A stretch of 48,652 bases of DNA from Thiobacillus denitrificans DSM 12475. GTDB taxonomy: Bacteria > Pseudomonadota > Gammaproteobacteria > Burkholderiales > Thiobacillaceae. The notes under the pieces are model-generated. The model saw nothing but the letters and a program-made list of their open reading frames with translations, ran no database searches and was not told the origin of the DNA. Below are positions 20,361-36,645 of this stretch, piece after piece (the stretch's first letter is position 1; every line of letters starts with the position of its first letter). The translations under genes were made by a program, and so were the position numbers. The stretch spans positions 1 through 48,652 of the forward strand of contig NZ_AQWL01000016.1 of the NCBI RefSeq assembly GCF_000376425.1, in the 5' to 3' direction.

Positions 20361-20555
20361 TTTGTTGGCTCATGCAGCCCGATTGGCTTCCCGTAAGGAG
20401 CCGCCTTTTGCCGCAAGGCGCGCATAAATGCCGTTCAGTTCCTGAAAACGGCGGGTCTTCGGATCTGGAATTCCATCGCAGTTCAACCACCCCATGGGGA
20501 GCCACGCTCCCTTTGGGGAAAGTGCTCCCCTTTTTTATTTTTTGAGGAGAGCATT
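20361..20555 (+). promoter_or_regulatory. repeat leader R1 (type A)
   Basis: The 5' leader of the DUF3577 gene. Hairpins: GGCT-CATGC-AGCC; GCCGTT/AACGGC (20430-20452) with conserved loop CAGTTCCTGA; GGTC-TTCG-GATC; and the distal stem in which GTGCTCCCC pairs with the ribosome-binding GGAGAGCA. A conserved RNA motif named after DUF3577 has been described; identity with it needs a covariance search. Confidence 0.75.
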
Positions 20556-21002
20556 ATGTCTGAATCCAAATTCTACGATCTTCATGTCACTGGCCTTGGC
20601 TACTTGAACCGTGTTCGCATGGTCAAGCCCAACAAAGGTGAAACGTTCCTCGCTTGCTCCATTTCCGCTCTCCGTGGTGAGTGGAACAAGGACGGCTCGA
20701 TCAAACCTGAGTCGACTAAATTCGACGTGCGGGTTTATGGTCAGGACGCGATCAAGGCGATCGAGGTGCTCAAGCCGCATGGCGATGAGAAACGGAAAGT
20801 AATGATCCAGTTCAAGCTGGGTGACATCTACCCTGAAGTGTTTGTCTACGAAAAAGACGTGGGCACGCGCAAGAAGGGTGATACCGGTGTGATGATCAAG
20901 GGCCGCTTGCTCAAGATCACCAATGCCTGGGTGGATGGTAATCCGGTTGTTCTGCCTGCAGGCTCTTCGCAACAGCAAGAGGCTGCAGCAGGCGGCCAGT
21001 AA
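20556..21002 (+). CDS. STY4534-family ICE replication protein (DUF3577)
   Basis: A 148-residue soluble protein (MSESKFYDLHVTGLGYLNRV onward, with FDVRVYGQDAIKAIEVLKPH and VFVYEKDVGTRKKGDTGVMI). It matches the DUF3577/STY4534 family found in ICEs of this type and annotated as a replication protein. The predicted all-beta core and KGRLLKITNAWVDG segment recall OB-fold ssDNA binders; the C-terminus is a short Gln/Ala/Gly tail. GAGGAGA supports ATG 20556, but that site is inside the R1 hairpin. Molecular function is not established beyond the family name. Confidence 0.85.
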   Translation: MSESKFYDLHVTGLGYLNRVRMVKPNKGETFLACSISALRGEWNKDGSIKPESTKFDVRVYGQDAIKAIEVLKPHGDEKRKVMIQFKLGDIYPEVFVYEKDVGTRKKGDTGVMIKGRLLKITNAWVDGNPVVLPAGSSQQQEAAAGGQ

Positions 21003-21053
21003 CGTCCAGCTTCACAAACCCGACCGGGGAGTTTCACGCTCCCTGCCGGGTGT

Positions 21054-21095
21054 CGTGGACTCCCCGGTTTTCATTTTGAAAACCAGGAGTCCACG
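21054..21095 (+). promoter_or_regulatory. 18-bp hairpin hiding the ribosome binding site
   Basis: CGTGGACTCC (21054-21063) pairs perfectly with GGAGTCCACG (21086-21095), and inside it GGTTTTCA pairs with TGAAAACC around a TTT loop. The AGGAG of the next gene is in the 3' arm and the ATG follows immediately, so translation should need the stem to open. Confidence 0.85.
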
Positions 21096-21197
21096 ATGAA
21101 AGAAGCTTTTCTGAATGTTCTGTTCGATTTGCGCATCATGAGTCTGTGCGTGGTGGTGTCACAAGTCATCGCCTTGGCGAGCACTCTGTCGAATTGA
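21096..21197 (+). CDS. 33-residue membrane peptide
   Basis: ATG 21096 to TGA 21197 encodes MKEAFLNVLFDLRIMSLCVV and 13 more residues (VSQVIALASTLSN), which together form one hydrophobic helix. GGAG is six bases upstream and lies in a perfect stem. The dedicated regulatory leader argues that this small ORF is real. It could be a membrane peptide; toxicity is possible but not shown. Confidence 0.5.
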   Translation: MKEAFLNVLFDLRIMSLCVVVSQVIALASTLSN

Positions 21198-21214
21198 TGG
21201 AGTCAATCTGAAAA

Positions 21215-21280
21215 CCTCCTGCGTGGGGTTTTCACCAGAGGGCCAACCCTCCGGTGAAAACCCCGCAACCAACCAGGAGA
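21215..21280 (+). promoter_or_regulatory. long hairpin leader with paired ribosome binding site
   Basis: GGGGTTTTCACC (21225-21236) pairs perfectly with GGTGAAAACCCC (21253-21264), and inside it GAGGG pairs with CCCTC around CCAA. Outside, CTCCTG (about 21216-21221) can pair with the ribosome-binding CAGGAG (21274-21279). The sequence is unrelated to the R family but has the same design. Confidence 0.8.
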
Positions 21281-21285
21281 CATCC

Positions 21286-21462
21286 ATGAATCACCAACTT
21301 TCACTAAATTTCCTTCAATTGATGGCCAAGGCTGAAGTACCGATCGAGGACGCCAGGTGGTTTCACTGCATCGCGCGTCGTCGGGGTTTGCTTCGTGAAC
21401 GGGATGTACTCCGGTTCCGTCGCATCCAATCCATCCTGGCTGATAGAATCTGTTTCGGTTGA
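21286..21462 (+). CDS. hypothetical small protein
   Basis: A 58-residue basic protein (MNHQLSLNFLQLMAKAEVPI onward, then RRRGLLRERDVLRFRRIQSI). It is Arg-rich and helical and could bind nucleic acid. ATG 21286 follows CAGGAGA at the base of the long hairpin. A perfect terminator follows 7 bp after the stop, so this closes a transcription unit. The family is not recognised. Confidence 0.5.
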   Translation: MNHQLSLNFLQLMAKAEVPIEDARWFHCIARRRGLLRERDVLRFRRIQSILADRICFG

Positions 21463-21469
21463 TCGAAGG

Positions 21470-21492
21470 AAACGCCCAGCCTCTGGGCGTTT
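21470..21492 (+). terminator. intrinsic terminator
   Basis: AAACGCCCAG-CCT-CTGGGCGTTT: a ten-bp perfect stem with a three-base loop, ending in TTT. It can work in both directions. Confidence 0.8.
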
Positions 21493-21977
21493 ACCCAAGC
21501 GGGCCATGCCCGTTTCGGTAAACCCCGTTTCTCGTTTGCTGAGTACAGCAGGATTGGCGCCCTAAGCGCTGGCTTTTAGTCCGGGCAGCCCCTCATACCG
21601 GATTGGGATTCCTCCGCAGTTTCCCAGGGGTTACATTGGCGACGGATGCATCCCCATCTGCTTGCCTCATCCCTGAGACGGTCCGATAACCCGTCTTCCC
21701 TACACCCGCCAGAAGGCTTGCCCGAGACCAGGTTTCGGGCAAGCCCTCTGGGCATCGATCAGATCATGGGTTGTGACGGCCAGAACGGTCACGGCATTTG
21801 CGGTTTGCCGCATCCAAAAATTTGCGCCGAGCCCCTCAGTGCGGCGCGTCGCTTCCTATATGGAAGAGTTGAGCAGGGGTTCCATTACCAACCATATTGA
21901 ATCATGACCAACCCATCCTGCCCCGCAAGCGGGGTATCCAGGAGAACTGGCCATCTTGGATAAGCCGTTTGCCAAAG
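21493..21977 (+). other. 485-bp gap with structured elements, no gene
   Basis: No supported ORF. An 11-bp stem GGCTTGCCCGA/TCGGGCAAGCC spans 21715-21745. CCCCGC-AA-GCGGGG is at 21921-21934, followed by CCAGGAG with no close ATG or GTG, as if a leader has lost its gene. CATCCCTGAGACGG near 21668 resembles the conserved R-element loop, so this may be a decayed leader. Confidence 0.5.
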
Positions 21978-22162
21978 TTTCACTGCTGGCTGTCAGTATC
22001 AGCCCGATCGATGCGCGTTATGCATCGCCCATTAAAGCCGTTCAGTTCCTGAAAACGGCGGGTCTTCTGACCTGGAATTCCATCGCAGTTCCACCCCATG
22101 GGGAGTCACGCTCCCTTTGGGGAAAGTGCTCCCATTTTTTTCTGATTCTTAAGGAGAGCACT
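21978..22162 (+). promoter_or_regulatory. repeat leader R2 (type A)
   Basis: The leader of the DUF3275 gene, with GGCTG/CAGCC, CGATGC/GCATCG, GCCGTT/AACGGC with loop CAGTTCCTGA, GGTC-TTCT-GACC, and AGTGCTCCC pairing with GGAGAGCACT next to the ATG. Compared with R1 the third stem keeps pairing (GATC becomes GACC), which supports RNA structure. Confidence 0.8.
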
Positions 22163-22735
22163 ATGTCTATTCGCATCAATGGAACGCTTGTAATCAAGGA
22201 AATCAAAGGTGCCAACGGCAAGTTCTGCGTAGGCGACCTGACCACCCCGATCGGAGAATTCAAGGTCAAGGAGCCCATCCTCGATCAGTTTTCTGAAGGC
22301 CGATACGAGGGTGAGTTTCTCGTCGATAACTTTTACCTCAGTTCGTATATTTGGCGCGGGAAATCGACCACCGACATCCGTGCGAAGGTAATGGAAATAT
22401 TCCTGGACACGGTTGATGAGGGAAAGATTGAGGACGTGCCGACCGAACCCGATCCAATCGCCACAGAATCCACAGCGGCAGCGAATCAAGCCGGTCCATC
22501 CGATATTCCTGTTCCAGCTGCGCTGGTTCAGGAGCATGAAAACCAGGATCCGGTTTTCCAGGAGTTGCTGGAATTGTTTGGGGCCGATCTTGCCGACCTT
22601 GTCTGGGTTAGCAAGGACGTGAAACTTGACCCCACTGTGGATCGAGCTGTCTTCCGCAGTCAGCGTGACCGTCTGAAGGAGATGGGCTACGTGTTCGATG
22701 CAAAAACCCAAGGATGGTCCAGGAAGGAAAAGTAA
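22163..22735 (+). CDS. DUF3275 family ICE protein
   Basis: A 190-residue protein. The N-terminal part (MSIRINGTLVIKEIKGANGK, then VGDLTTPIGEFKVKEPILDQ and EGRYEGEFLVDNFYLSSYIW) matches the DUF3275 family, a beta-rich domain that recurs beside DUF3577 in ICEs. A disordered Pro/Ala/Thr linker (about 95-125) separates it from a C-terminal domain that ends ALVWVS-type and GYVFDAKTQGWSRK. The start ATG 22163 follows AAGGAGA in the R2 hairpin. Role unknown; an accessory role with ssDNA is a guess from the neighbourhood. Confidence 0.8.
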   Translation: MSIRINGTLVIKEIKGANGKFCVGDLTTPIGEFKVKEPILDQFSEGRYEGEFLVDNFYLSSYIWRGKSTTDIRAKVMEIFLDTVDEGKIEDVPTEPDPIATESTAAANQAGPSDIPVPAALVQEHENQDPVFQELLELFGADLADLVWVSKDVKLDPTVDRAVFRSQRDRLKEMGYVFDAKTQGWSRKEK

Positions 22736-22737
22736 TC

Positions 22738-23076
22738 ATGAAATCGAGCATGCCTCCTCCGGCTGAGATTATTGCCATCACAGTTGACAATTTCCGTGCC
22801 CAACAGGCTGAGGATGTTGTCAACGATGTGTTCCTTCAGGCAGAGCAGATTCTGCGAAGTTTGGGGGATACGGGCGGTGGAAGAGCGTTGGCCAGGCTCA
22901 TCAAGGCGTTGCACGGTGAAGGTGGGTTGAAATTCAATGACCTCCTGCCCCTGGACAGTGGGAACCGCTCGATCGCGTTGGCACTCATCAAGGAATTTCT
23001 GGATGAGTGCCGTTCATTTGATGAGTGGGAGTCACTGGCCGAATTGGCTGATCGTTGCGTATTTCATGGGATGTAG
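22738..23076 (+). CDS. hypothetical helical protein
   Basis: A 112-residue acidic all-alpha protein (MKSSMPPPAEIIAITVDNFR onward). ATG 22738 is two bases after the DUF3275 stop with AGGAAGG ten bases upstream, so the two genes form one module under leader R2. No signal or membrane segment is seen and no family is recognised. Confidence 0.6.
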   Translation: MKSSMPPPAEIIAITVDNFRAQQAEDVVNDVFLQAEQILRSLGDTGGGRALARLIKALHGEGGLKFNDLLPLDSGNRSIALALIKEFLDECRSFDEWESLAELADRCVFHGM

Positions 23077-23098
23077 TGCCATGAAGCGGAGTTTCATG

Positions 23099-23230
23099 AA
23101 AGTTTGAGTCCGGTCAGTCCCTGAAACCGGAACGCCTCGCAAGAGGCCGGGATTTAATTTCATCAACCACCCCATGGGGAGTCACGCTCCCTTTGGGGAA
23201 GGTGCTCCCCTATTTTTTAAGGAGAGCAAT
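23099..23230 (+). promoter_or_regulatory. repeat leader R3 (hybrid B/A)
   Basis: Upstream it has the type B stem TCCGGT/ACCGGA with loop CAGTCCCTGA and GCCTC-GCAA-GAGGC (GNRA loop). Downstream it has the type A end CCCCATGGGG, GGTGCTCCCC and AAGGAGAGCA. It is a natural recombinant between the two leader types. Confidence 0.8.
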
Positions 23231-23755
23231 ATGTTATTTGGCCTTGGCATTACCGTCACAGAAGCTGCTCGCCAGCTTGGCATCAAGGACCCCGATGGTT
23301 ACGGGATTATCCTGGCGACTACAGACGTTGAGTATGTGGATGCAGCAGAAGCCTTCCAGGCGTTGTGTGGCGAACAGTGCCACCTTGAGAGGGAGGACTT
23401 CGAGGCTGCAATTGATAGGCAAATGAAAAATGGCCGACTTGCAATGGGCTTCCTGTTCATCGGAATGGCCAGGATCGATACCGGTACGAAAAAACCTGTT
23501 CCCGGTACTGAGGCCTATGGAGTCGTGTGCCTGCCTGGTCAATTCGGCTGGGTAAAAACACAGGACGCGCTTCCGGGCGAGCAACAGCCAGTGGTCGTGA
23601 TCGCTGCGTCAGGGGTGATGTCGTTCGGGCGGATGATCGAGGGGCGGTTCTGCGAGTATCACCCTGACGTAGACCGCTTTGTTGACAGTGAAATGGAATG
23701 GGGCGGAACACGGGGTATCCAGCAATGGATGCCGATCGATCGACCTCTGTCCTGA
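23231..23755 (+). CDS. hypothetical ICE protein
   Basis: A 174-residue soluble protein (MLFGLGITVTEAARQLGIKD onward). The N-terminus could hold a short helix-turn-helix-like stretch (TVTEAARQLGIKDPDGYGII) and the rest is mixed alpha/beta and acidic. ATG 23231 follows AAGGAGA of leader R3. It is the only gene of its module, closed by a strong terminator. The family is not recognised. Confidence 0.6.
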   Translation: MLFGLGITVTEAARQLGIKDPDGYGIILATTDVEYVDAAEAFQALCGEQCHLEREDFEAAIDRQMKNGRLAMGFLFIGMARIDTGTKKPVPGTEAYGVVCLPGQFGWVKTQDALPGEQQPVVVIAASGVMSFGRMIEGRFCEYHPDVDRFVDSEMEWGGTRGIQQWMPIDRPLS

Positions 23756-23764
23756 TTTTCTTTT

Positions 23765-23787
23765 AAAGCCCCCACCCGGGGGCTTTT
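23765..23787 (+). terminator. intrinsic terminator
   Basis: AAAGCCCCC-ACCC-GGGGGCTTT followed by T. It ends the module of the gene at 23231 and directly abuts leader R4. Confidence 0.85.
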
Positions 23788-24035
23788 CTCGAACGCGCGG
23801 GCTTATGCCGGCGTGCTGGAGAAAGGCTCCGGGCCTTTGAAGTGTTTCACTGCTGGCTGTCAGTATCAGCCCGACCGATGCGCGTCATGCATCGCTTATG
23901 AGTCCGGTCAGTCCCTGAGACCGGAATGCCTCGCTGCTCCCACAATGGCATGGAGGCCGGGATTCAATTCATCAACCCAGCGGGGCGTTTTCACTCCCTC
24001 TTGGGGAGTATGTCCCTTCATCGAAGGAGAAAGGT
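23788..24035 (+). promoter_or_regulatory. repeat leader R4 (type B, variant end)
   Basis: It contains the full upstream set: TTCTCGAACGCG...GGAGAA hairpin, GGCTG/CAGCC, CGATGC/GCATCG, CCGGTC/GACCGG and a GCCTC...GGAGGC stem. The distal part differs: ACTCCC/GGGGAGT, then CCTTC-ATC-GAAGG, whose 3' arm overlaps the AAGGAG of the next gene. Confidence 0.75.
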
Positions 24036-24233
24036 GTGTGCGGTCAACTGGCAAGACGGTGGTGCAAACTGGAGCTGCCGCTTCAAGTGCTTCAAAGTAA
24101 TTCGGGCTTCTATATCGGCACGGCCGATGGGGATGACCCCGTTTCAAAAGAGAGCGTTGAGTATTTTCAGACGCATGCCGCTGCTCAACAGGCACTGCAG
24201 GATGGTACCTGGACGCAGGACGTATTTCTTTAA
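24036..24233 (+). CDS. hypothetical small protein
   Basis: A 65-residue protein with a GTG start at 24036, five bases after AGGAGA. The sequence (LQVLQSNSGFYIGTADGDDP, then SVEYFQTHAAAQQALQDGTW) looks like a small alpha/beta fold with two strands and a helix. No family is recognised. It is the sole gene between leaders R4 and R5. Confidence 0.5.
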   Translation: MCGQLARRWCKLELPLQVLQSNSGFYIGTADGDDPVSKESVEYFQTHAAAQQALQDGTWTQDVFL

Positions 24234-24247
24234 GCAATTGCTGCTGC

Positions 24248-24441
24248 AGCGTTTCTCTGCTGGCTGTCAGTTACAGCCCGACCGATGCGCGTCATGCATC
24301 GCCTTATGAGTCCGGTCAGTCCCTGAGACCGGAACGCTTCTACGGAAGCCGGGATTCAATTTGTTATTTCAACCCAGCGGGGTGCAACCACCCCGCACTG
24401 GGTTCGGCTGCCTCCGCGTTTTTATTTAGGAGAGCAGCGCT
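24248..24441 (+). promoter_or_regulatory. repeat leader R5 (type B)
   Basis: GGCTGT/ACAGCC, CGATGC/GCATCG, TCCGGTC/GACCGGA, GCTTC-TACG-GAAGC (UNCG loop). Then a long stem begins AACCCAGCGGGGTG and pairs with CACCCCGC-A-CTGGGTT. Last, GCTGC-CTCC (24407-24415) pairs with GGAG-A-GCAGC (24429-24438), covering the ribosome binding site. Confidence 0.85.
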
Positions 24442-25398
24442 ATGAATTACCGTACCCGCAAGGTATCCGAGATTGACGTGGATGGATTGACCGCCGAATT
24501 GAGCTTCGAGCCTTCCTGCGTCATGAGCTACATGGAACACAAGATCGAAAAACAGGGTGGACTGGTCGCAGTTGGCTATCTTGTTGACGATCATGATGTG
24601 GAAAATCCCTTAGACGACTGTGACGGAATGGGACATATTTATTCTTCGCACCGTCATTCTGGCCAGCACGCCAAGATGCAAGCCGTACTTGGCCTGGACT
24701 CGGACTGGCAACGTGATTTATCCCTTCGAGTGGTCGAGCGTGAGGCGGAGTCTGCCTTGATGGAGTTGGTCAGAACCAGGCTCCAGGTCGATCTGGTTGC
24801 TTTCATCCTTGAGTGCGCCAATAACAATGAAATGAGCCGCGATCAGGCGATTGAGTACTTCGTCGTGGACTTCACAGGCCAGCTTCCCTATCACCGGGAA
24901 ACCTGGCTTACTGAAAAAGTGCGTGAGCTCGTCACCTGGAATAGCCTGCTTGATGATGCTTGGCAATTAGCCAGACTGTCAGGCCAAGTAGGCGATCCCT
25001 ACACAGTCATGCTTGATTGTTATGAGCATGGTGACCAGGTTTGGTCGGTGACAGGCTCTGGACCGCAATGCCTCTTTGATACGGCTCGGGGTGCCGGTGT
25101 TTGGGTGCCCGATCAATGCCTTCGTGATGAGCTGGACTCGATCAAGACCAATGAAGGAATTGAAGCGGCGCGCACCAAGGCAGTCGAGTTTGCGCTTCAG
25201 GCACTCGGGTCGTATAACTCCTGGCTGGCGGGTGACTGTTACGGGGTGGCGGTCGATGTATTTTTGACCGAGGGTGATCGCCTGAAACTGATCGACGAGT
25301 CTGCTGTATGGGGCTATGTCGGCAGAAAATGGGCGGAAGAATCACTATCTGAGGAGGTTAGGGCAGTGCTTGGCAATGCTGTCCTTAAAGCTGCATGA
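24442..25398 (+). CDS. hypothetical ICE protein
   Basis: A 318-residue acidic soluble protein. Notable segments are DDCDGMGHIYSSHRHSGQHA (His/Asp/Cys cluster, about residues 58-77), ECANNNEMSRDQAIEYFVVD and a C-terminal CYGVAVDVFL...WGYVGRKWAEE pair typical of uncharacterised plasmid and ICE proteins. There is no membrane segment. ATG 24442 follows AGGAGAGCAGC. It overlaps the next gene by 4 bp (ATGA). The function is not recognised; the His/Cys cluster may bind metal. Confidence 0.6.
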   Translation: MNYRTRKVSEIDVDGLTAELSFEPSCVMSYMEHKIEKQGGLVAVGYLVDDHDVENPLDDCDGMGHIYSSHRHSGQHAKMQAVLGLDSDWQRDLSLRVVEREAESALMELVRTRLQVDLVAFILECANNNEMSRDQAIEYFVVDFTGQLPYHRETWLTEKVRELVTWNSLLDDAWQLARLSGQVGDPYTVMLDCYEHGDQVWSVTGSGPQCLFDTARGAGVWVPDQCLRDELDSIKTNEGIEAARTKAVEFALQALGSYNSWLAGDCYGVAVDVFLTEGDRLKLIDESAVWGYVGRKWAEESLSEEVRAVLGNAVLKAA

Positions 25399-25649
25399 AC
25401 CCTATATCTGATATTCCCCTATGGGCATTTGAGTGGGCCGGCGCATTTCTTGGTCTGACTGGCGCTGCATTGCTCTCACTCAATGTAAGAGCAAGCCGCT
25501 TCGGCTGGCTGCTGTTCCTGCTGTCCAACGGTGCCTGGATTGCTTATGGAATCAAGGTTGGCGCGCATGGACTGGTTGTAATGCAAATCGGCTTCACACT
25601 CACAAGCCTGATGGGTGTTTATCGCTGGCTGGTGGCAGCAAAAATGTAG
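25395..25649 (+). CDS. small membrane protein (three helices)
   Basis: An 84-residue protein with three hydrophobic helices: WAGAFLGLTGAALLSL, FGWLLFLLSNGAWIAYGIKV and GLVVMQIGFTLTSLMGVYRW. The layout (three helices, a SNGAW-like kink) resembles half-transporters of the SemiSWEET or PnuC-like type, but the match is structural only. It is coupled to the upstream gene by ATGA. Confidence 0.6.
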   Translation: MNPISDIPLWAFEWAGAFLGLTGAALLSLNVRASRFGWLLFLLSNGAWIAYGIKVGAHGLVVMQIGFTLTSLMGVYRWLVAAKM

Positions 25650-25678
25650 TTTCAAGTGAATTCCGCTCAATGCGGCTA

Positions 25679-25741
25679 CCCGGAGGGTGCAATCCCCTCC
25701 GGGGGATTCCCCTCCTTTTTTTGATTGAAAAGGAGAAGGAA
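25679..25741 (+). promoter_or_regulatory. double-hairpin leader, non-R sequence
   Basis: CCCGGAGG/CCTCCGGG (25679-25703), then CTCCTTTT (25712-25719) pairing with AAAAGGAG (25728-25735), which contains the ribosome binding site of the gene at 25742. It has the same two-hairpin design as the R leaders with unrelated sequence. Confidence 0.8.
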
Positions 25742-25969
25742 ATGGATGCAAACGAGCACACGCAGTTCTATCTTGACCAACTCAAACCTTTGGTTGGCGG
25801 GGTCATAGAGGATGCCGTTCGTACTGACGGGGATGAGTTCGGCGACGAGTTTTTCGGACTGTCCATCAGATGCAAGGATGGCGAAGTCAGGCGTTTGATC
25901 ATCCTGGCGGACGATGAAGGCAATGGCCCTGGCAGCTTCGAGATTGTTGAAGGAGAGAGCCATGGCTGA
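25742..25969 (+). CDS. hypothetical small acidic protein
   Basis: A 75-residue strongly acidic protein (MDANEHTQFYLDQLKPLVGG onward, then DEFGDEFFGLSIRCKDGEVR). It has an N-terminal helix and a C-terminal beta sheet, and the size and charge recall DNA-mimic or anti-restriction proteins, though there is no sequence proof. ATG 25742 follows AAGGAG. It overlaps the next gene by 8 bp. Confidence 0.5.
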   Translation: MDANEHTQFYLDQLKPLVGGVIEDAVRTDGDEFGDEFFGLSIRCKDGEVRRLIILADDEGNGPGSFEIVEGESHG

Positions 25970-26324
25970 GCCTTCGATTGCTACAGCGTTGCGCTGCGCA
26001 CTGGCTGACCTTGAAGCCATCATGCCGGAATATGATCCAGAGCATGAGCACTCTGCCTGGGAGACCCTTACCGAACTGCGGACATTGGTTGATTCTGAAG
26101 AACGTCTCCAGGCGGCAGATCGGTATGACCCAGCCACTCAGATTGTGATTGTCTGGTCGGTCGAAGATGTATTGGAAGTTCGTCCCGATCTGGCAGAAGA
26201 GCAGGCCATTCAGGTTCTACGCTTGGTCGAGAAGCATCATGACGCGAGTATTGGCGTCAACTGGGAAACACTGGAGAGCTTCGCATACGATCTATTCGGT
26301 GAAGCACCGACAGCGCCGGAATAG
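25962..26324 (+). CDS. hypothetical acidic helical protein
   Basis: A 120-residue acidic protein (MAEPSIATALRCALADLEAI onward). The second half (VWSVEDVLEVRPDLAEEQAI, then RLVEKHHDASIGVNWETLES) resembles a recurring plasmid and ICE segment in which two helices are followed by GINWE. ATG 25962 follows AGGAGA. It ends the module; a terminator begins 10 bp later. Function unknown. Confidence 0.55.
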   Translation: MAEPSIATALRCALADLEAIMPEYDPEHEHSAWETLTELRTLVDSEERLQAADRYDPATQIVIVWSVEDVLEVRPDLAEEQAIQVLRLVEKHHDASIGVNWETLESFAYDLFGEAPTAPE

Positions 26325-26334
26325 TTTTTCCCTT

Positions 26335-26353
26335 GCCCCCTCCGGGGGCCTTT
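26335..26353 (+). terminator. intrinsic terminator
   Basis: GCCCCC-TCC-GGGGGC followed by CTTTC. The T run is short. It sits at the head of leader R6, as at the other module junctions. Confidence 0.65.
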
Positions 26354-26606
26354 CTCGAACGCGCGGGCTGATGCAGGCGTGCTGGAGAAAGGCTCTGGGT
26401 CTTTGAAGTGTCGCACTGCTGGCTGTCAGTTACAGCCCGAATGATGCGCGTCATGCATCGCCATATGAGTTCGGTCAGTCCCTGAGACCGGAACGCCTTG
26501 ATGTCCCCACAAGGGCATGGAGGCCGGGATTCAATTCATCAACCCAGCGGGGTGCATCCACCCTGCAAGGGGTTCGGCTGCCTCCGCGTTTTTTTAGGAG
26601 AGCAAC
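26354..26606 (+). promoter_or_regulatory. repeat leader R6 (type B)
   Basis: The full-length copy includes the TTCTCGAAC...GGAGAA hairpin, GGCTGT/ACAGCC, ATGC/GCAT, CGGTC/GACCG with loop AGTCCCTGA, a GCCT...AGGC stem with CCC-ACAA-GGG tip, GGGGTG/CACCC, then GCTGCCTCC facing GGAGAGCA before ATG 26607. Confidence 0.8.
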
Positions 26607-27320: not shown

Positions 27321-27353
27321 CAAAGCGGTAGATCAAATTTTTCTTAACCCTAT

Positions 27354-27403: not shown

Positions 27404-28066
27404 ATGGAAATGATGAATGTGAAAATCTATGTGCTCTGCCGCGATGCGGGCGGATCGTCCGATTTTTTTGTGACGGATGTTTGCTTGTCCAGATCGTCGT
27501 ATGACATTGGCGAGCACTACGACGTCGCCATTAAGCGTGCGGAAGAGGCCGGCTATGAAACGCCGATGGAAGCCTTCGATGAGTTCGAGCCTGCCGGCAA
27601 GTCGCTTGCACGGCTTCAATCCATGCAGACAGTCGAGGCCATTGGGGAAGATGTTCCAACGGTCCTGGTATGGCTGGGCGAAGGCGGTGTCGAGGAGTTG
27701 ATCGCGGATTTCCAGCTGCGCTACGTGGTTGTCTCAACCGATACTGAGTATGCGGACGATGACTGTTTGCATGCAATCAACACGGGCAATGAGATTCACG
27801 AAGCCCTTTGTCATACTGGGGTCGGCACCGTAAAGCAGCACGAGGCCGGTTTCGTTTGGAACCAGGTGCGACGGCTTGCTGAACCTGCTTTGTGGCAGCC
27901 GGTTGATTACAGTGATCTGGATACCCTGCCTGCGGATTTGATTAATCCACTGGGGATCAGCACACCCGACAAGGCCACGGCTCAGTTGGGAAGTTTGCAG
28001 GATGCGGTTGTGAAGCATCGCAGGCGTTGCCGGAAAGCGCTCGGGATGGATGAGGTGCTCAAATGA
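27404..28066 (+). CDS. hypothetical ICE protein
   Basis: A 220-residue acidic protein (MEMMNVKIYVLCRDAGGSSD onward). The start ATG 27404 is chosen over 27398 because AGGAG (27393-27397) is six bases before it. The C-terminal third (KRRRRC-like basic helix, VKHRRRCRKALGMDEVLK) contrasts with the acidic body. It overlaps the cytosine methyltransferase by 4 bp (ATGA), so the two are co-translated. The family is not recognised. Confidence 0.6.
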   Translation: MEMMNVKIYVLCRDAGGSSDFFVTDVCLSRSSYDIGEHYDVAIKRAEEAGYETPMEAFDEFEPAGKSLARLQSMQTVEAIGEDVPTVLVWLGEGGVEELIADFQLRYVVVSTDTEYADDDCLHAINTGNEIHEALCHTGVGTVKQHEAGFVWNQVRRLAEPALWQPVDYSDLDTLPADLINPLGISTPDKATAQLGSLQDAVVKHRRRCRKALGMDEVLK

Positions 28067-29472
28067 AGCACTATCTCATCACCTCAATTGGCGAAAACAA
28101 AGGTGCTCCGCGGGTGTGGCTTCAAGGTTCCAATCTGGATCATGTTGGATTCAAGCCCGGCACTCGATTCGACATCAAGCTGGATGACGCGAGACTGGTG
28201 CTCACTCGATCTGACCAGGGCATTCGTGTGGTCTCGCGGAAACGGCGAGGCGAAAGCGAGTATCCGGTCATCGACATCAATAGCTGGGAACTGCTGGAGA
28301 TGTTCGAGGGAATGAGCGCGGTACGGGTGGTGATGCTGGAGGAGGAAATCCATATCCTTCCGCTTGCATCCGAGCTGCGTCGCCAGGAGAGAGTCGAGCG
28401 AACTGCCGCCAGGATGGGGCAGGGTGACCCGCTGGAAATCGGGTCGCTTTCCCATGGCGGCGGCATCATGTGCCATGCGATTCATGCGGGGTTATACCGC
28501 GAGGGGCTGGACTCAAGGCTGATTTTTGCCAATGAGATCAGACCTGAGCTGCTCGATCATGCCAGGGAAGCCAATGATTGCTGGGAATCCGACACCGTAG
28601 GCATCGCGGCTCCCATGCAGGAACTGGCCTTTGATCGCTGGGCCATGGCCAAGCTTCCAGGCGTGGATATTCTGGAGGCCGGGATTCCATGTTCTGGTGC
28701 CAGCCTCTCCGGACGCTCCAAGCGCAAGCTTGGCGTGCCGGAGGATCATCCCGAGGTAGGTCATCTGGCTGTTGCCTTTCTTGCGATCGTCGCAGCGGTC
28801 AACCCGTTGGTGGTGGTTCTGGAAAACGTGCCCCAGTATCGGGATACGGCCAGCGGCGCCATCATCCGATCGCAGTTGCGAGACCTCGGCTACGCAGTCC
28901 ATGAAGTGGTGCTGTCCGGCGAGTCCTTCAATGCAGTCGAGGATCGTAAGCGCTATTGCATGGTGGCCATGACCAATGGGGTGAGCTTTTCGATGAACGA
29001 CCTGGCGGTGCCGGAAAGAATCCCGGTCACCCTTGGAGATGCGCTGGATGAGGTCGACGACGACGACCCAAGGTGGTCGACCATGCCGGGTTTGAAAGCC
29101 AAGCAGGAACGCGACAAGGAGGCCGGCAAGGGATTCATGATGCAGGTTTTCGATGGAGCTTCTACCCGGATCGGGACTATCACCAAGGGTTACGCCAAGG
29201 TGAGAAGCACCGACCCAAAGATCCGCCACCCGCGCAACCCTGACCTGCTACGTCAGTTGACCGCAGGGGAGCACGCCCGGGTAAAGCAAATTCCCGAGCG
29301 TCTGATCGATGGGCTTTGCGAAACAACTGCTCATGAAGTCCTTGGCCAGTCGGTGATATATGGGCCGTTCATGGCGATCGGCGCCTTGATTGCAAGCGCG
29401 CTCAAGCGCTGGGCAATCGAGGGGCCAAGCGGTTGCCAACAAGGCGATGCAGCACTGATTGCTTGCGGTTAG
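28063..29472 (+). CDS. C5 DNA cytosine methyltransferase, atypical
   Basis: A 469-residue protein. An unrecognised N-terminal domain of about 120 residues precedes the C5-methyltransferase fold. The catalytic motif IV is GIPCSGAS with C210, motif VI is ENV at 254-256 (LENVPQY) and motif VIII is DRKRYCMVA. Motif I is unusual: SLSHGGGIM replaces the normal FxGxG. The C-terminus has a motif X-like GPFMAIGALIASAL. No restriction partner is adjacent, so it is probably an orphan or anti-restriction methylase protecting the element. It is coupled to the upstream gene and followed by a terminator. Confidence 0.8.
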   Translation: MKHYLITSIGENKGAPRVWLQGSNLDHVGFKPGTRFDIKLDDARLVLTRSDQGIRVVSRKRRGESEYPVIDINSWELLEMFEGMSAVRVVMLEEEIHILPLASELRRQERVERTAARMGQGDPLEIGSLSHGGGIMCHAIHAGLYREGLDSRLIFANEIRPELLDHAREANDCWESDTVGIAAPMQELAFDRWAMAKLPGVDILEAGIPCSGASLSGRSKRKLGVPEDHPEVGHLAVAFLAIVAAVNPLVVVLENVPQYRDTASGAIIRSQLRDLGYAVHEVVLSGESFNAVEDRKRYCMVAMTNGVSFSMNDLAVPERIPVTLGDALDEVDDDDPRWSTMPGLKAKQERDKEAGKGFMMQVFDGASTRIGTITKGYAKVRSTDPKIRHPRNPDLLRQLTAGEHARVKQIPERLIDGLCETTAHEVLGQSVIYGPFMAIGALIASALKRWAIEGPSGCQQGDAALIACG

Positions 29473-29477
29473 TTTTT

Positions 29478-29500
29478 GCCCTCCCTCCGGGGGGGCTTTT
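29478..29500 (+). terminator. intrinsic terminator
   Basis: GCCCTCCC-TCC-GGGGGGGC with one G-T pair, then TTTT. It closes the methyltransferase module and abuts leader R7. Confidence 0.75.
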
Positions 29501-29752
29501 CTCGAACGCGCTGGCTGCGGCCGGCGTGTTGGAGAAAGGCTCCGGGACTTTGTAGTGTTTCACTGCCGGCTGTCAGTTTCAGCTCGACCGATGCGCGTCA
29601 CGCATCGCCTTATGAGTCCGGTCAGTCCCTGAGACCGGAACGCCTCGATGCTCCTACAAGGGCATGGAAGCCGGGATTCAATTCATCAACCCAGCGGGGT
29701 GCATCCACCCCGCAAGGGGACGGCTGCCTCCGCGTTTTTCAGGAGAGCAGCA
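29501..29752 (+). promoter_or_regulatory. repeat leader R7 (type B)
   Basis: A full-length copy: TCTCGAACGCG...GTGTTGGAGA hairpin, a GGCTGT stem, CGATGCG-CGTCA-CGCATCG (stem lengthened to seven by T to C), TCCGGTC/GACCGGA, a GCCTC stem, GCGGGGTG/CACCCCGC, and GCTGC-CTCC facing GGAG-A-GCAGC before ATG 29753. Confidence 0.85.
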
Positions 29753-30376
29753 ATGAGATGTATCAACGAACAACTGACCAAGGCAAACGACTGTTTGCGA
29801 TTTGTGGCCGATGATCTGCGTGGCGCACTGGCTGACGCCAACGCAGTGCAAGCACTTGTGCTGTTGCCGCTGATCGCCGACACGACCAGACTGGCGCAGC
29901 AGGTCAGCGCACTGATCGAAGCGATGGGGGCTTGCGAAAGTGAAGCGCAGCATAGGCTCGACTGGGACCTGATCGGGAAAGTGATGGCGAAGCACGGTAT
30001 TTCGGGTGACATCGCACCACTCGAATCAGAAAGCGGGTTCATTGCCAGGCTTCTTGATGAAGCATGTTCCAGAACCTTGCGGGCTGAACATTCGATTGCA
30101 GAAGGGGACAGCTTGTTATCCATCGAAATGAAACGCCATGTCCTGCATCTCGACGACCTGGAAGAGGCGGTGTCCTTTTACGCAGATGATATTGAACCTG
30201 GGCAAGGTGGCGTTCTTCAAGGAAAGCTGAGGGACTTTTCCGGATGTACCCATGTGTCGTTGATTCGGAGTGACTGGATCACCGTGGCAGCCAGTCTGCG
30301 GTATGCAGACAATCACAGCGCGGCGGCATATATCGAGGAAATTATCGATGCAGGCGCTGGCGATTCAGTAGGGTGA
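29753..30376 (+). CDS. hypothetical ICE protein
   Basis: A 207-residue protein (MRCINEQLTKANDCLRFVAD onward). The first half is alpha-helical, and the second half (LEEAVSFYADDIEPGQGGVL, then DFSGCTHVSLIRSDWITVAA) is mixed. ATG 29753 follows AGGAGAGCAGCA; the open frame extends upstream through the leader, but those codons lie in the conserved repeat. Sole gene of its module. The family is not recognised. Confidence 0.55.
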   Translation: MRCINEQLTKANDCLRFVADDLRGALADANAVQALVLLPLIADTTRLAQQVSALIEAMGACESEAQHRLDWDLIGKVMAKHGISGDIAPLESESGFIARLLDEACSRTLRAEHSIAEGDSLLSIEMKRHVLHLDDLEEAVSFYADDIEPGQGGVLQGKLRDFSGCTHVSLIRSDWITVAASLRYADNHSAAAYIEEIIDAGAGDSVG

Positions 30377-30420
30377 TCCAGACCTTGTCAAGGTTATTGA
30401 AACGCGCATAATAAAATAGT

Positions 30421-30600
30421 TATGCCTGCTAGCTGTCAGTTTCAGCCCGACCGATGCGCGTCATGCATCGCCATTGAATGCCGTTAAGTTCCTGAAAACG
30501 GCGGGTCTGCGGATCTGGAATTCCATTGCATTTCAACCACCCCATGGGGAGTCACGACTCCCCTCCGGGAAAGTGCTCCCCTTTTTTCCAGGAGCACGCC
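30421..30600 (+). promoter_or_regulatory. repeat leader R8 (type A)
   Basis: GCTGTCAGTTTCAGC, CGATGC/GCATCG, GCCGTT/AACGGC with loop AAGTTCCTGA, GGTC-TGCG-GATC, CCCCATGGGG, then GTGCTCC pairing perfectly with GGAGCAC (seven bp) next to ATG 30601. Both arms differ from R1 and R2 yet still pair, which is compensatory change. Confidence 0.85.
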
Positions 30601-31272
30601 ATGCTTTACAAAATATCGGAACTCTCTGACCTGTATGCGGATGCTTGCATCCGGGACGAATCTGGCGAGTTGATGTTCCTCTCCCTGTACGGTCGGGACA
30701 CTGCGATTCAGCAGCTTCTCGCCGCATTCACCCTGAAGGAAAGCTGCGGAGGCTTGTCTGGTTTCCGCCTCACGCCAGTCAATGACGGCGATGGCCGCTC
30801 GGTCGAGCAGGTCCATGTACGCAGTCCGGACCGGCTCACAAAATTCAGCGGACGATTACCCAGGGACAACCTCTTTGGGAACCTTGTCCATACCTGGATA
30901 TACGATGCAGCCCTGCTAAAGCCTGACAGGTCTACCAAGACCGCGTGGTTCATGCTGGACGAGCCATTTACACCGGAAGCAAGGCCTCGATTGCTGCAGG
31001 GGATATGGTCTTTGTACAAGACCCTCTCACCTGTTCCGTTACTCGATAGCTGGAGGGACGTAGTCATACGGGCAACCCATGCCGAGTGCGTGAGTTTTCT
31101 TGAAGACAGCGACCATCCACCGATCGGGAAGGTAACTGCAGCCAAAGTCATGTTGACCGAATCATTTTCGGACGACGTGTCGAGAATGGTTCAGGCAGGC
31201 ATGATCGGCCTGAATGGCGAGGAAGAGGCTTACCTCGAACAGGCTCGAAGCGCCAACGCCATGGCTGCGTAG
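30601..31272 (+). CDS. hypothetical ICE protein
   Basis: A 223-residue soluble protein (MLYKISELSDLYADACIRDE onward). Segments include LYGRDTAIQQLLAAFTLKES and a central WFMLDEPFTPEARPRLLQGI. It appears to be a single mixed domain without motifs I can name. ATG 30601 follows CCAGGAGCACGCC. The family is not recognised. Confidence 0.6.
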   Translation: MLYKISELSDLYADACIRDESGELMFLSLYGRDTAIQQLLAAFTLKESCGGLSGFRLTPVNDGDGRSVEQVHVRSPDRLTKFSGRLPRDNLFGNLVHTWIYDAALLKPDRSTKTAWFMLDEPFTPEARPRLLQGIWSLYKTLSPVPLLDSWRDVVIRATHAECVSFLEDSDHPPIGKVTAAKVMLTESFSDDVSRMVQAGMIGLNGEEEAYLEQARSANAMAA

Positions 31273-31284
31273 CATCAGCGATTT

Positions 31285-31351
31285 ATCAACCCAGCGGGGT
31301 GCAACCACCCCGCAAGGGGATGGCTGCCTCTGCGATTCTTTGGAGGGTCGT
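31285..31351 (+). promoter_or_regulatory. short repeat leader R9 (distal half only)
   Basis: Only the last part of a type B leader is present: CAACCCAGCGGGGTG pairing with CACCCCGC, then GGCTGCCTCTGCG and TTGGAGGG before ATG 31352. The upstream hairpins and a terminator are absent, so this gene is probably co-transcribed with the one at 30601. Confidence 0.75.
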
Positions 31352-31570
31352 ATGGTGGCTATCAGCACCTATCAGATCACCCGCCGTGAGGCAGGAATGT
31401 ACGAAGTTCGCCTTCTGGTGGACGGCACCCCATGCCCAGGGCGAATTGGCATGCTGAGCGGGCGTCCAGGGCATTGGGAAGCAGAGTGGGTGGATGGCTC
31501 CCGCATTGGATCATTCAGAACACGCCTGGAAGGTGCCAAAGCACTCGAAAACTACAGATACTTCGTTTGA
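31352..31570 (+). CDS. hypothetical small protein
   Basis: A 72-residue basic protein (MVAISTYQITRREAGMYEVR onward, then RPGHWEAEWVDGSRIGSFRT), predicted as a small antiparallel beta fold with a C-terminal helix. TGGAGGG precedes ATG 31352. It is followed by a terminator. The family is not recognised. Confidence 0.55.
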   Translation: MVAISTYQITRREAGMYEVRLLVDGTPCPGRIGMLSGRPGHWEAEWVDGSRIGSFRTRLEGAKALENYRYFV

Positions 31571-31585
31571 GACATCTGGCAATAT

Positions 31586-31609
31586 GCCCCGCCAATTCGG
31601 GGGGCTTTT
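31586..31609 (+). terminator. intrinsic terminator
   Basis: GCCCC and GGGGC arms around GCCAATTCG (with two more C-G pairs inside), followed by TTTT. It closes the unit 30601-31570 at the head of R10. Confidence 0.7.
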
Positions 31610-31863
31610 CTCGAACACGCGGGTGAAACCGGCGTGTTGGAGAAAGGCTCCGGGCCTTTGTGGTGTTTCACTGCTGGCTGTCAGTTACAGCCCGACCGAT
31701 GCGCGTCACGCATCGCCTTATGAGTCCGGTCAGTCCCTGAGACCGGAACGCCTCGATGCTCCCACAAGGGCATGGAGGCCGGGATTCAATTCATCAACCC
31801 AGCGGGGTGCATCCACTCCGCAAGGGGACGGCTGCCTCCGCGTTTTCATTTAGGAGAGCAGCA
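31610..31863 (+). promoter_or_regulatory. repeat leader R10 (type B)
   Basis: The first hairpin is AACACGC-GGGTGAAACCG-GCGTGTT with a perfect seven-bp stem and GAAA in the loop, where other copies have AACGCGC facing GCGTGCT or GCGTGTT. The remaining stems are as in R7, ending in GCTGC-CTCC opposite GGAG-A-GCAGC before ATG 31864. Confidence 0.85.
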
Positions 31864-32028
31864 ATGGTATTTCCCAAAACGATTCAGTGGCGCGGACAGA
31901 CGTATCAGGTGCCGTCAATGTCCGAAATCGAGGAGTGGGTGCTCGATTCGGTATGTGAAACCCCGGAAGGGGATTGTGTCGAGTCCGACCACCCAGATAG
32001 CTGGCTCAGCCTTCTGGGCATTATCTAA
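31864..32028 (+). CDS. hypothetical small protein
   Basis: A 54-residue acidic protein (MVFPKTIQWRGQTYQVPSMS onward, then EEWVLDSVCETPEGDCVESD). AGGAGAGCAGCA precedes ATG 31864. The C-terminus (DHPDSWLSLLGII) resembles the tail of other ICE hypotheticals. It is the first gene of a module that includes the methyltransferase at 32270. Confidence 0.5.
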   Translation: MVFPKTIQWRGQTYQVPSMSEIEEWVLDSVCETPEGDCVESDHPDSWLSLLGII

Positions 32029-32039
32029 ATGGGATCATC

Positions 32040-32273
32040 ATGATGAGAGAAGCGTTCTCGGAGTCTGAGGTGAACCTGATTGTCCAGGGGCTGGATTTGC
32101 TCCTTGCAGAAAAGCAGGAAGCACACAGGTGGGCGGATGAGTCGTACCGCTACGGTGGCAGCGAAATTGCTTACACAGAAAGCGACTTCGGCATCCCGCA
32201 AATCATTGCACTGCAGGGAAAAATCGACGGGGCTATGGTGTTGGATGAGCCGGAAAGCGAGGTGTCGGCATGA
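32040..32273 (+). CDS. hypothetical small protein
   Basis: A 77-residue acidic helical protein (MMREAFSESEVNLIVQGLDL onward, with GGSEIAYTESDFGIPQIIAL). Either ATG 32040 or 32043 could be used; no clear ribosome binding site is seen. Its stop overlaps the next ATG (ATGA), so the genes are coupled. The family is not recognised. Confidence 0.55.
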   Translation: MMREAFSESEVNLIVQGLDLLLAEKQEAHRWADESYRYGGSEIAYTESDFGIPQIIALQGKIDGAMVLDEPESEVSA

Positions 32274-33367
32274 GCCTCATCTATCCTCGTTTGGCCCAGA
32301 ACTTTATCAAGAATGGATATTTCCCGACGGACGAGGTGACGCTGGCCCGGATTCTCCAGACGCTCGACATTGGTGGTGGGCAACTGCGTATTCTTGACCC
32401 GTGCTGCGGCGAAGGAACGGCATTGGCTGAAGTTAAGCACCACCTGGTTCAATGCGGAGCATCTGTCGTGGCCAATGGCATCGAGTTCGATGCGGAGCGT
32501 GCGTGGCATGCCAAGGGGATACTGGACACAGTCGCGCACAGTGATGTGAACGATGTGTTTGTGTCTGCCAGAAGTCAGGGTTTGCTGTTCCTGAATCCAC
32601 CGTATGGCGATGTCGTATCGGACAAGGCGGCTACGGGAGATCGTTCCCGGGGTGATCGTCTTGAGAAGGTGTTCTATCGCAAGACGGTTGCCTGGCTGCA
32701 GTTCGGCGGTGTCATGGTGCTCATCGTTCCGCACTACGTTCTGGACAAGGAGTTCTCCGGAATGATTGCCCGGCACTTCGAGCAGGTTCAGGTATTCATG
32801 GCGCCGGAAACACGATTCAGGCAGTGCGTCGTGTTTGGCGTCAAGCGTCGTGCAGACGGAGCGGATCCAGGCGTGCAGAAGCTGCTTGAGGCCTGTGGTC
32901 GCGGGGAAGTGCCAGCCGTATTGCCGGAGTATTGGCAAGGTGAGCAGTTCCTGGTTCCACAGATCAAGGAGGCCGAAGCACGCTTCACGTCAATTCGCAT
33001 TGACGGTCCCCAGCTCCAGGCTGAGCTTGAGCGTGTTCGCAAGAATACGCTCTGGCCGATGTTCGGGACGCACTTTGTGCGTGCTGGCGACACGCACCGC
33101 CGGCCCTTGCGCGCGCTTTCAGACTGGCATTTGGCGCTGGCGCTGGCAGCAGGACAAATCTCGGGTGTGGTGGAGTCTGGCAATGGAAGGCGTCTCCTGA
33201 TCAAAGGTGACACCTTCAAGGAGCGTGATCTCAAGACGACATTCGAGACCCGGGCCGATGGGTCCGTGTCAGAAATCCTGACCTATACGGACAAGTTTGT
33301 GCCAAGCATCACCGGCATCGACTTCACCCCGGGTCCGGGTTTTGGGACAGTCGTTTCGATTCGTTGA
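32270..33367 (+). CDS. DUF6094-type class I methyltransferase
   Basis: A 365-residue protein with an N-terminal Rossmann methyltransferase domain: SAM motif I DPCCGEGTAL (D43) and motif IV NPPYG (N109), the pattern of amino-group DNA methyltransferases (N6-adenine type). The C-terminal third (RRPLRALSDWHLALALAAGQ, then GRRLLIKGDTFKERD) matches the DUF6094 proteins common in ICEs and plasmids next to a large helicase. A target-recognition domain is not evident. A role in modifying or protecting element DNA is inference. It is coupled to the upstream ORF by ATGA. Confidence 0.8.
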   Translation: MSLIYPRLAQNFIKNGYFPTDEVTLARILQTLDIGGGQLRILDPCCGEGTALAEVKHHLVQCGASVVANGIEFDAERAWHAKGILDTVAHSDVNDVFVSARSQGLLFLNPPYGDVVSDKAATGDRSRGDRLEKVFYRKTVAWLQFGGVMVLIVPHYVLDKEFSGMIARHFEQVQVFMAPETRFRQCVVFGVKRRADGADPGVQKLLEACGRGEVPAVLPEYWQGEQFLVPQIKEAEARFTSIRIDGPQLQAELERVRKNTLWPMFGTHFVRAGDTHRRPLRALSDWHLALALAAGQISGVVESGNGRRLLIKGDTFKERDLKTTFETRADGSVSEILTYTDKFVPSITGIDFTPGPGFGTVVSIR

Positions 33368-33379
33368 ATTTTTTCAAAC

Positions 33380-33442
33380 CCCCTTGCGGGGAACATTCCC
33401 GCAAGGGGTGTTCCCCTCTTGGATTATTCGAGGAGGAACACC
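33380..33442 (+). promoter_or_regulatory. double-hairpin leader, non-R sequence
   Basis: CCCCTTGCGGG (33380-33390) pairs perfectly with CCCGCAAGGGG (33398-33408). Next, GGTGTTCC-CCTC (33407-33418) pairs with GAGG-A-GGAACACC (33430-33442), enclosing the ribosome binding site immediately before ATG 33443. The two stems share two bases, so they partly compete. Confidence 0.9.
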
Positions 33443-33982
33443 ATGCGTTTATTTGAAGACAACATTCAGATTGAAATACCCGGACGGCCGACTCCATCGG
33501 CCCGTTCTCCCGAGGCAGACCCCCGCCTTGACGGAAAAGTGAACTCTGTCAGTCGACGTGATGCAGTTGAAGCATTCCTTCGTCTTCGGCTGTTCATGCC
33601 AGAGAGACAGAAGCAAATCGTGGCCACATGTATGAATGGAGAAGAACGGCAGTTTTTTTTCGACAAAATGGTTGAGATTGCGGCCACTGTCGAAGGCATG
33701 CCGGTAACGTACCAGCAAGATGGCAAGGGCGACGAGGCCATTGCACACCTTCACTATTTTCTGGGTGATTGCCATTGGTACATCACCGAGAAGGACAGGG
33801 AAGGGGAGGTCGAGCAGGCTTTCGGATATGCCATCCTGCACGGTGACTTGATCAATGCCGAGTATGGATATATTCCGATTACAGAGCTTGTTGGTACAGG
33901 TGTCGGCGCCGAGTTGGATTTCCACTTTAAGCCCATCCCCATGACTCAGATCAAGCAGTCGCTGGAGGATCGGTATGGATGA
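33443..33982 (+). CDS. DUF2958-like protein
   Basis: A 179-residue protein. Residues about 95-175 (HYFLGDCHWYITEKDREGEV, then EYGYIPITELVGTGVGAELD and FHFKP) follow the DUF2958 pattern seen in plasmid and ICE proteins, in which a Trp-Tyr strand is followed by GY-x-L-x-EL and a C-terminal DxHF. The N-terminal part is charged and less conserved. ATG 33443 lies at the base of a strong hairpin. The biochemical role of the family is unknown. Confidence 0.65.
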   Translation: MRLFEDNIQIEIPGRPTPSARSPEADPRLDGKVNSVSRRDAVEAFLRLRLFMPERQKQIVATCMNGEERQFFFDKMVEIAATVEGMPVTYQQDGKGDEAIAHLHYFLGDCHWYITEKDREGEVEQAFGYAILHGDLINAEYGYIPITELVGTGVGAELDFHFKPIPMTQIKQSLEDRYG

Positions 33983-34013
33983 TTCTTCGCAGGCAATGTT
34001 CTGATTCTTAACC

Positions 34014-34031
34014 GCCCCTCCGGGGGCTTTT
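34014..34031 (+). terminator. intrinsic terminator
   Basis: GCCCC-TCCG-GGGGC followed by TTTT, at the head of leader R11. The stem is short but GC-rich, and its position matches the other modules. Confidence 0.65.
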
Positions 34032-34285
34032 CTCGAACGAGCGGGCTGATGCCGGCGTGTTGGAGAAAGGCTCCGGGCCTTTGTGGTGTTTCACTGCTGG
34101 CTGTCAGTTACAGCCCGACCGATGCGCGTCACGCATCGCCTTATGAGTCCGGTCAGTCCCTGAGACCGGAACGCCTCGATGTCCCCACAAGGGCATGGAG
34201 GCCGGGATTTAATTCAATTCAACCCAGCGGGGTGCATCCACCCCGCAAGGGGATGGCTGCCTCCGCGTTTTTTAGGAGAGTCGTC
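34032..34285 (+). promoter_or_regulatory. repeat leader R11 (type B)
   Basis: A full set of upstream hairpins, near-identical to R10 and R7, with GCGGGGTG/CACCCCGC. The last stem is weaker: CTCC still pairs with GGAG, but GTCGTC replaces GCAGC. This leader serves the helicase, so it may be relaxed in regulation. Confidence 0.8.
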
Positions 34286-36592: not shown

Positions 36593-36603
36593 TTACGTAT
36601 TGC

Positions 36604-36629: not shown

Positions 36630-36645
36630 ACGTCTGAGCCGTTAT

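Follow-up and report, generated by a model that had tools for sequence, protein, structure and literature searches.

Pseudoknotted leaders of known systems and of an element in Thiobacillus denitrificans

Pseudoknots that precede genes or control their translation have been described in several systems. The STAXI motif (PMC2864571) is reported as a pseudoknot repeated two to three times in tandem near DNA-handling genes, and the same 2010 report lists radC RNA (Rfam RF01754) as a candidate structure, for which no function was found in the literature searches made. In phage T4, the single-stranded DNA-binding protein (SSB) gp32 represses its own mRNA autogenously through a pseudoknot 5' of the initiation region (PMC535899), and in tisB mRNA a pseudoknot is described as required for translation from a sequestered ribosome-binding site, of which it lies 5' (PMC7708055). 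The window analysed here is the whole of contig C16 (48,652 bases) of the 3.6-Mb genome of Thiobacillus denitrificans DSM 12475. An AcaB-family gene and a topoisomerase gene on its left side and an integrase gene close to its right end fit an integrative and conjugative element (ICE), which the window probably represents, and genes of this element are headed by a repeated leader (copies R1 to R11) that combines pseudoknots with a tail able to hide the Shine-Dalgarno (SD) sequence.

Compared with these systems, most of the window leaders have two pseudoknots of different type, and their likeness to STAXI is one of description, with no Rfam match to STAXI in the window. The ribosome-binding region of T4 gene 32 is described as little structured, whereas the window leaders, common to ten genes, can hold their SD sequence in a hairpin; one of the leader-bearing genes encodes an SSB-like protein, as judged from its predicted fold. 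The tisB pseudoknot serves a single type I toxin gene, in contrast to the shared leader set of the window.

The leader array

An initial annotation of this DNA had placed similar leaders before 11 genes, and direct-repeat families, alignment and blastn find them at all 11 starts (Table 1). Ten contain a core (R1-R8, R10 and R11), R9 consists of a tail only, and each lies directly 5' of a gene of the element. A blastn search of the genome with the leader gave 10 matches, all inside the window; the motif AGT(C/T)CCTGA occurs 10 times in the window, always on the + strand and within leaders; a covariance model built from the window and related copies recovers the identical 10 cores; and two leaders folded whole are better than 200 of 200 shuffles (z -5.2 and -4.6). 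The proposal of selected RNA structure in an element-wide leader set is well supported, as are the stable tetraloop caps (13 GNRA and 4 UNCG among 24 distinct short variable stems of the window and its relatives, long stems excluded). The details fared unevenly. The leader is shared, but not every copy has the hairpins described: the TCTCGAAC...GGAGAA stem is present in just five of the 11 copies (R4, R6, R7, R10 and R11), R3 lacks both the GGCTG and the CGATGC hairpin, R1 differs in sequence at both, and R9 consists of the distal part only. Of the helix changes said to be two-sided, TCCGGTC/GACCGGA against GCCGTT/AACGGC truly is so, whereas AACACGC/GCGTGTT in R10 against AACGCGC/GCGTGTT in R7 is a one-sided change from A-U to G-U, in a stem that the alignment shows to be mismatched in R4, R6 and R11. 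The pseudoknot and the SD-hiding tail are features that this earlier reading missed.

Pseudoknots of the leader

Each of the ten cores has a loop, AGTCCC or AGTTCC, with a complement, GGGATT or GGAATT, 3' of the variable stem, and the pattern of base changes indicates that the loop and the GG(G/A)ATT beyond this stem form a three-stem pseudoknot. The 33 Thiobacillus cores amount to 32 distinct rows, each of which pairs at all six pseudoknot positions, and the sole variable position changes on both sides; in distant leaders the letters change jointly (AGTCCA/TGGATT, AGTCCT/GGGATT, ATCTCC/GGAGAT or GGAGGT, ATTTCC/GGAGAT, GTCTCC/GGAGAT). Across 28 sequences selected from 94 collected cores, which include related and hence not independent sequences, 168 of 168 cells of the pseudoknot helix are paired (33 with double changes) and 166 of 168 cells of helix P3 (39 with double changes); 0 of 2000 shuffles, column-wise or whole-strand, matched this pairing, the end of the 3' strand being chosen via a five-word list and not fitted to each loop. 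When helices P3 and P4 were parsed in 36 leaders while ignoring the pseudoknot, one parse failed (L083) and P4 was misplaced in five (R4, R6, R7, L116_11179 and L116_15937), and the strand 3' of P4 was as expected in the remaining 30. All 35 parses, the misplaced ones included, collapsed to 26 distinct cases, for which the leaders' own 3' strands scored -181.0 against -138.4 +/- 7.7 for swapped strands, with 0 of 20000 swaps as good.

Fifteen type i leaders have an H-type pseudoknot at their 5' ends. Its loop helix forms 74 of 75 pairs (0 of 5000 swaps as good), and its first stem, with 57 of 60 pairs, is weakly supported because 227 of 5000 swaps were as good. R1 and R3 are without an H-type pseudoknot in the type i form.

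A tail that can pair with the Shine-Dalgarno sequence

From the pseudoknot towards the start codon, the leader continues with a hairpin (H5), an arm B, a stretch that is mostly U-rich, and an arm C that holds the SD sequence and spacer. Forty-three tails were compared, many of them related, comprising 38 leader tails (R9 among them) and five gene heads without a core; the start at 21096 was placed 1-2 nt off in the folding and pairing computations. The best fold pairs at least three of the four SD bases in 40 of the 43 tails, the exceptions being R9, L078_11166 (which has no GGAG) and 27404. The spacers are highly varied (GACCATC, AGCAC, GATC, GATAT, AACACC, TCCACGA), and 34 distinct spacers pair with the flank of the anti-SD in their own B arms at -179.2 against -115.8 +/- 9.0 when swapped (0 of 20000 as good), the anti-SD not having been chosen by its own partner. 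Arm B can pair instead with an arm A (n=41; own -497.2 against swapped -428.0 +/- 12.0; 0 of 20000 as good, and 1 of 20000 when swaps were confined to four groups); in this test the A:B figure is unbiased, whereas the B:C figure is biased because arm B had been selected for fitting C. A U-rich stretch (an 8-mer with at least five T) lies between B and the SD sequence in 36 of the 43 tails. The probability that the SD sequence is unpaired is 0.150 in leader genes (16 starts, one placed 1 nt off) and 0.395 in 156 chromosomal open reading frames (ORFs; p=2e-5). The SD sequence and spacer can pair specifically with an upstream arm that has an exclusive alternative, as in an SD switch, and these patterns suggest that the leader acts in cis as an SD-hiding switch linked to the pseudoknot, a reading to which we assign a probability of about 0.65.

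Relation to radC RNA and occurrence in other elements

The initial annotation mentioned an RNA already named after DUF3577, which could not be confirmed: Rfam 15 has no match at its gathering score in the window or in seven relatives, its matches at E<=10 within 20000-34500 are unrelated and weak, and no open-access paper with both 'DUF3577' and 'RNA motif' was found. Likewise, the titles and abstracts of the open-access literature searched contain no description of this array. RF01754 is not matched in the window at its gathering score of 40 bits, in 20000-34500 at E<=10, or on this contig in a search of the whole genome at E<=10, which gave 12 matches elsewhere.

The array itself is real, as claimed, but as a multi-copy region it is not unique, because contig C1 of the same genome has four radC RNAs above the cut-off, between 14 and 61 kb. 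This region (L117-L120) has its own DUF3577 gene and is probably a second ICE. Its radC RNAs precede a homologue of the 24036 protein (by tblastn), an unassigned gene at 16.3 kb, the DUF3577 gene and a RadC-like gene (by eye). Three of the four parse as two tandem pseudoknots on the same plan as the window leaders and the fourth does not; the best pseudoknot unit of the parsed copies beats 40 of 40 shuffles, although tandem three-stem pseudoknots as a trait of radC RNA are a reading of this analysis and not of Rfam. The C1 radC leaders, viewed by eye, lead into a similar SD-pairing tail, and the position of radC RNA before DUF3577 and radC genes is shared by the window leaders and their relatives. 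The window leaders differ in having one three-stem pseudoknot after an H-type one, with other loop sequences. On these sequence comparisons, the leader set appears to be either a diverged relative or a look-alike of radC RNA, used element-wide.

The leader was found in the source genome and five others of 61 genomes searched. Four of these five are among 36 genus-mates (G029 with 10 matches, G016 and G032 with 8 each, and G013 with 1, at a contig end), and the fifth (G056), of another family, has a 58-base match to the tail only. A covariance model from the 33 Thiobacillus cores, run on 51 loci (without L121), matched 95 times at E<=1 and 75 times at E<=0.05; 90 of the 95 matches lie on the + strand. 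A threshold of E<=0.05 places a leader at most 330 nt 5' of DUF3577 in 33 of the 44 DUF3577 loci, and one of E<=1 does so in 38; minus the five Thiobacillus-type loci (L073-L077), three of which contributed sequences to the model, these counts become 28 and 33 of 39. Six DUF3577 loci lack a match: the leader is visible by eye in L085, L086, L091 and L113, a radC RNA precedes DUF3577 in L111, and L105 has neither. Sequence-based models can miss relatives of the leader because the letters of the pseudoknot differ between elements while its pairing is kept. Judged by these matches, the leader RNA is present beyond the genus Thiobacillus. A class-wide search with a covariance model found it in at least 2 of 369 genomes, its own included, scoring 11 candidates per genome and giving no count of absence; the protein-anchored loci were used instead. 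Plasmids gave no match to window DNA 20200-24500 or to a type ii leader, and viral contigs gave 0 matches to one leader pattern.

The DUF3577 leaders of other ICEs gave a mixed picture: shuffles as good as the parsed pseudoknot numbered 0 of 100 in L055, L057 and L060, 2 of 100 in L050, 5 of 100 in L044 and 1 of 100 in L052 (found only under a looser stem rule), the parse of L047 was unconvincing (24 of 100), and no pseudoknot was found in L053. The parse of L066 was unconvincing as well (12 of 40). In ICEHin1056, tails of this kind occur at four gene heads, three of them pairing well. Its DUF3577 leader (L135, locus 5655-5985) has a perfect SD-pairing arm, ATGTTTCTCC/GGAGAAACAT, and a possible pseudoknot GATTCT/AGAATC, which came second to another parse. 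A Pseudomonas veronii plasmid (L136) has two radC RNAs above the cut-off (8781-8926 and 9404-9551) 5' of its DUF3577 gene; among four gene heads of this plasmid, the DUF3577 one alone has a clear SD hairpin.

The genes under the leader had been called unrelated and mostly unknown. They are not wholly unrelated, since they include DUF3577, methyltransferases and an SNF2-like helicase, and in four related loci (L081, L087, L097 and L116) the gene behind a further leader copy has a Pfam RadC domain. L078 has seven leader matches (six at E<=1.1e-6 and one at 0.022) and L116 has five; by tblastn, homologues of the 20556, 24036, 26607, 30601 and 34286 genes are leader-headed in one or both. The leader-headed modules point to ICE DNA processing.

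Proposed regulation and a candidate trans-acting factor

Each copy would be the 5' leader of an ICE mRNA. The sequence comparisons show a sensor, which in most copies joins an H-type pseudoknot and a hairpin to the three-stem pseudoknot (in which a hairpin loop pairs beyond the adjacent capped stem), and an output part of arms A, B and C, in which B can pair with C or else with A, the U-rich stretch then following. By established logic, B:C would block translation, and A:B would free the SD sequence or, via the U-run, end transcription. Beyond the cis-acting switch, we infer that a trans-acting factor peculiar to the element recognises the pseudoknots and so sets the balance of B:C and A:B for all leader-bearing genes together, so that genes for ICE DNA processing would be made only at need, during replication, transfer or establishment; the element probably switches many genes jointly at the RNA level. 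Mean identity of the cores is 0.843 within an element (74 pairs), 0.791 for the same gene across elements (35) and 0.770 otherwise (297), and 23 of 29 cores have their nearest neighbour within their own element, a likeness that fits an element-specific factor.

The DUF3577 protein (Pfam PF12101, E 2.9e-38; NCBIfam NF040584, 121.6 bits, under the cut-off of 160) has a predicted OB-type fold (predicted local distance difference test score 84; predicted template modelling [TM] score 0.71), and the best Protein Data Bank matches of the model are SSBs (4dam, E 1.7e-4, query TM 0.49). It is a candidate only, because of this predicted fold, the SSB-like matches and the gp32 precedent: it may act like gp32, and its loading onto single-stranded ICE DNA (ssDNA) would relieve repression. 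That DUF3577 reads the leaders in trans is a tentative proposal, and we regard it as rather unlikely. A shade more doubtful still is the wider scheme in which ICEs of the DUF3577/radC type would run an RNA regulon: up to ten genes would have element-specific three-stem pseudoknots as common operators for the SSB-like DUF3577 protein of that element, ssDNA from replication or transfer would draw this protein off and so open the SD switches of the DNA-processing genes jointly, and radC RNA would be one dialect.

To our knowledge, most descriptions of ICE gene control concern promoters. That ten genes share one covarying leader, which has relatives in beta- and gammaproteobacterial elements, points to a layer of control at the RNA level, by which ICE replication, protection and transfer would be coordinated, and the array suggests a testable role for radC RNA.

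Evidence against the switch and rival explanations

Several observations weigh against a pseudoknot-linked SD switch and its proposed factor. The plain duplex energy between the SD arm and upstream DNA is not distinct from that in the 156 chromosomal ORFs (p=0.69), and the heads of R4, R6, 21286 and 27404 match the SD hairpin weakly or not at all. The tail is also present at heads without a core (e.g. 21096 and 33443), so core and tail may work separately. The ssDNA binders that best match DUF3577 do so with modest TM-scores, of which 0.49 is the best, and the likeness of cores within an element can stem from recent duplication alone. Finally, there is no excess of promoters between the modules (7 sites against 7.4 expected).

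The lack of a promoter excess suits processive antitermination or attenuation, in which the pseudoknot, alone or via a factor, would let RNA polymerase pass terminators between modules and A:B would be an intrinsic terminator. The region 20000-36700 contains, on both strands, 30 terminator-like sites against 16.0 +/- 4.0 expected, several of which overlap as versions of one stem; at the start of five leaders a G+C stem runs into CTTT or TTTT, three of these being among the terminator-like sites; and the U-rich stretch 3' of B is as frequent as noted above. We nevertheless consider this explanation unlikely, as the specifically kept pairing of B:C with the SD sequence and spacer calls for a translational one. 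Ribosome standby would be translational: the pseudoknot and the U-rich loop, which adjoins the SD sequence, would load the 30S subunit or S1 5' of a permanently hidden SD sequence, with no switching factor, and the tisB pseudoknot, described as needed for translation from a sequestered site (PMC7708055), offers a precedent. The kept A:B alternative and the within-element likeness of the cores suggest regulation rather than constant loading and make standby improbable. The initial annotation had left open whether the structure is RNA or folded ssDNA, and the latter, acting on the transferred strand as a promoter or protein site, would agree with the resemblance of the genes to ICE DNA-processing genes and with the same idea raised for STAXI (PMC2864571). 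RNA is favoured because the tail pairs with the SD sequence and spacer, its geometry tracking SD and start codon, and because 17 of the 24 short stems have GNRA or UNCG caps; G-U type pairs also occur in the pseudoknot, and folded ssDNA is a most improbable explanation.

Features of the array and other regions of the window

Table 1. Leaders, tails and the DUF3577 gene in the window.
Feature	Position	Strand	Context
Leader R1, class 2 core, P3/pseudoknot 20428-20472, then tail	20361..20555	+	Before DUF3577 gene
DUF3577 / STY4534-like protein, predicted SSB-type OB fold; candidate regulator	20556..21002	+	Pfam, NCBIfam, structure model
Tail-type leader without core: A CCGGGGAGT, B, C GGAGTCCACGA	21011..21095	+	Before 33-codon ORF at 21096
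Leader R2, class 2, pseudoknot AGTTCC/GGAATT	21975..22162	+	Before DUF3275 gene 22163-22735
Leader R3, P3/pseudoknot core and tail only	23107..23230	+	Before 23231-23755
Leader R4, class 1, 5' stem present, weak SD hairpin	23766..24035	+	Before GTG-start gene 24036-24233
Leader R5, class 1, TACG-capped variable stem	24236..24441	+	Before 24442-25398
Leader R6, class 1, 5' stem present	26328..26606	+	Before 26607-27320
Leader R7, class 1, 5' stem present	29475..29752	+	Before 29753-30376
Leader R8, class 2	30395..30600	+	Before 30601-31272; sigma-70-like site 30385-30412 just 5'
R9, tail only, no core	31286..31351	+	Before 31352-31570
Leader R10, class 1, 5' stem present	31583..31863	+	Before 31864-32028
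Tail-type leader without core: A GGGGAACA, B TGTTCCCC, C GGAGGAACACC	33370..33442	+	Before 33443-33982
Leader R11, class 1, P3/pseudoknot 34146-34209	34006..34285	+	Before SNF2-like helicase 34286-36592

Between the DUF3577 and DUF3275 modules, a long stretch without a clear gene (21460-21950) folds better than 100 shuffles (z -5.5). It is 78% identical over 341 bases to a sequence in L078 and has two shorter matches in L116, and its Thiobacillus orthologues contain a poor match to the covariance model (L073 10983-11081, E 0.067). This stretch is possibly a long noncoding RNA or a site of replication or transfer. Further to the right, positions 36646-45466 hold type I restriction-modification genes (HsdR, S and M), with a DUF4917/SIR2-like gene and a Bro-N gene in between.

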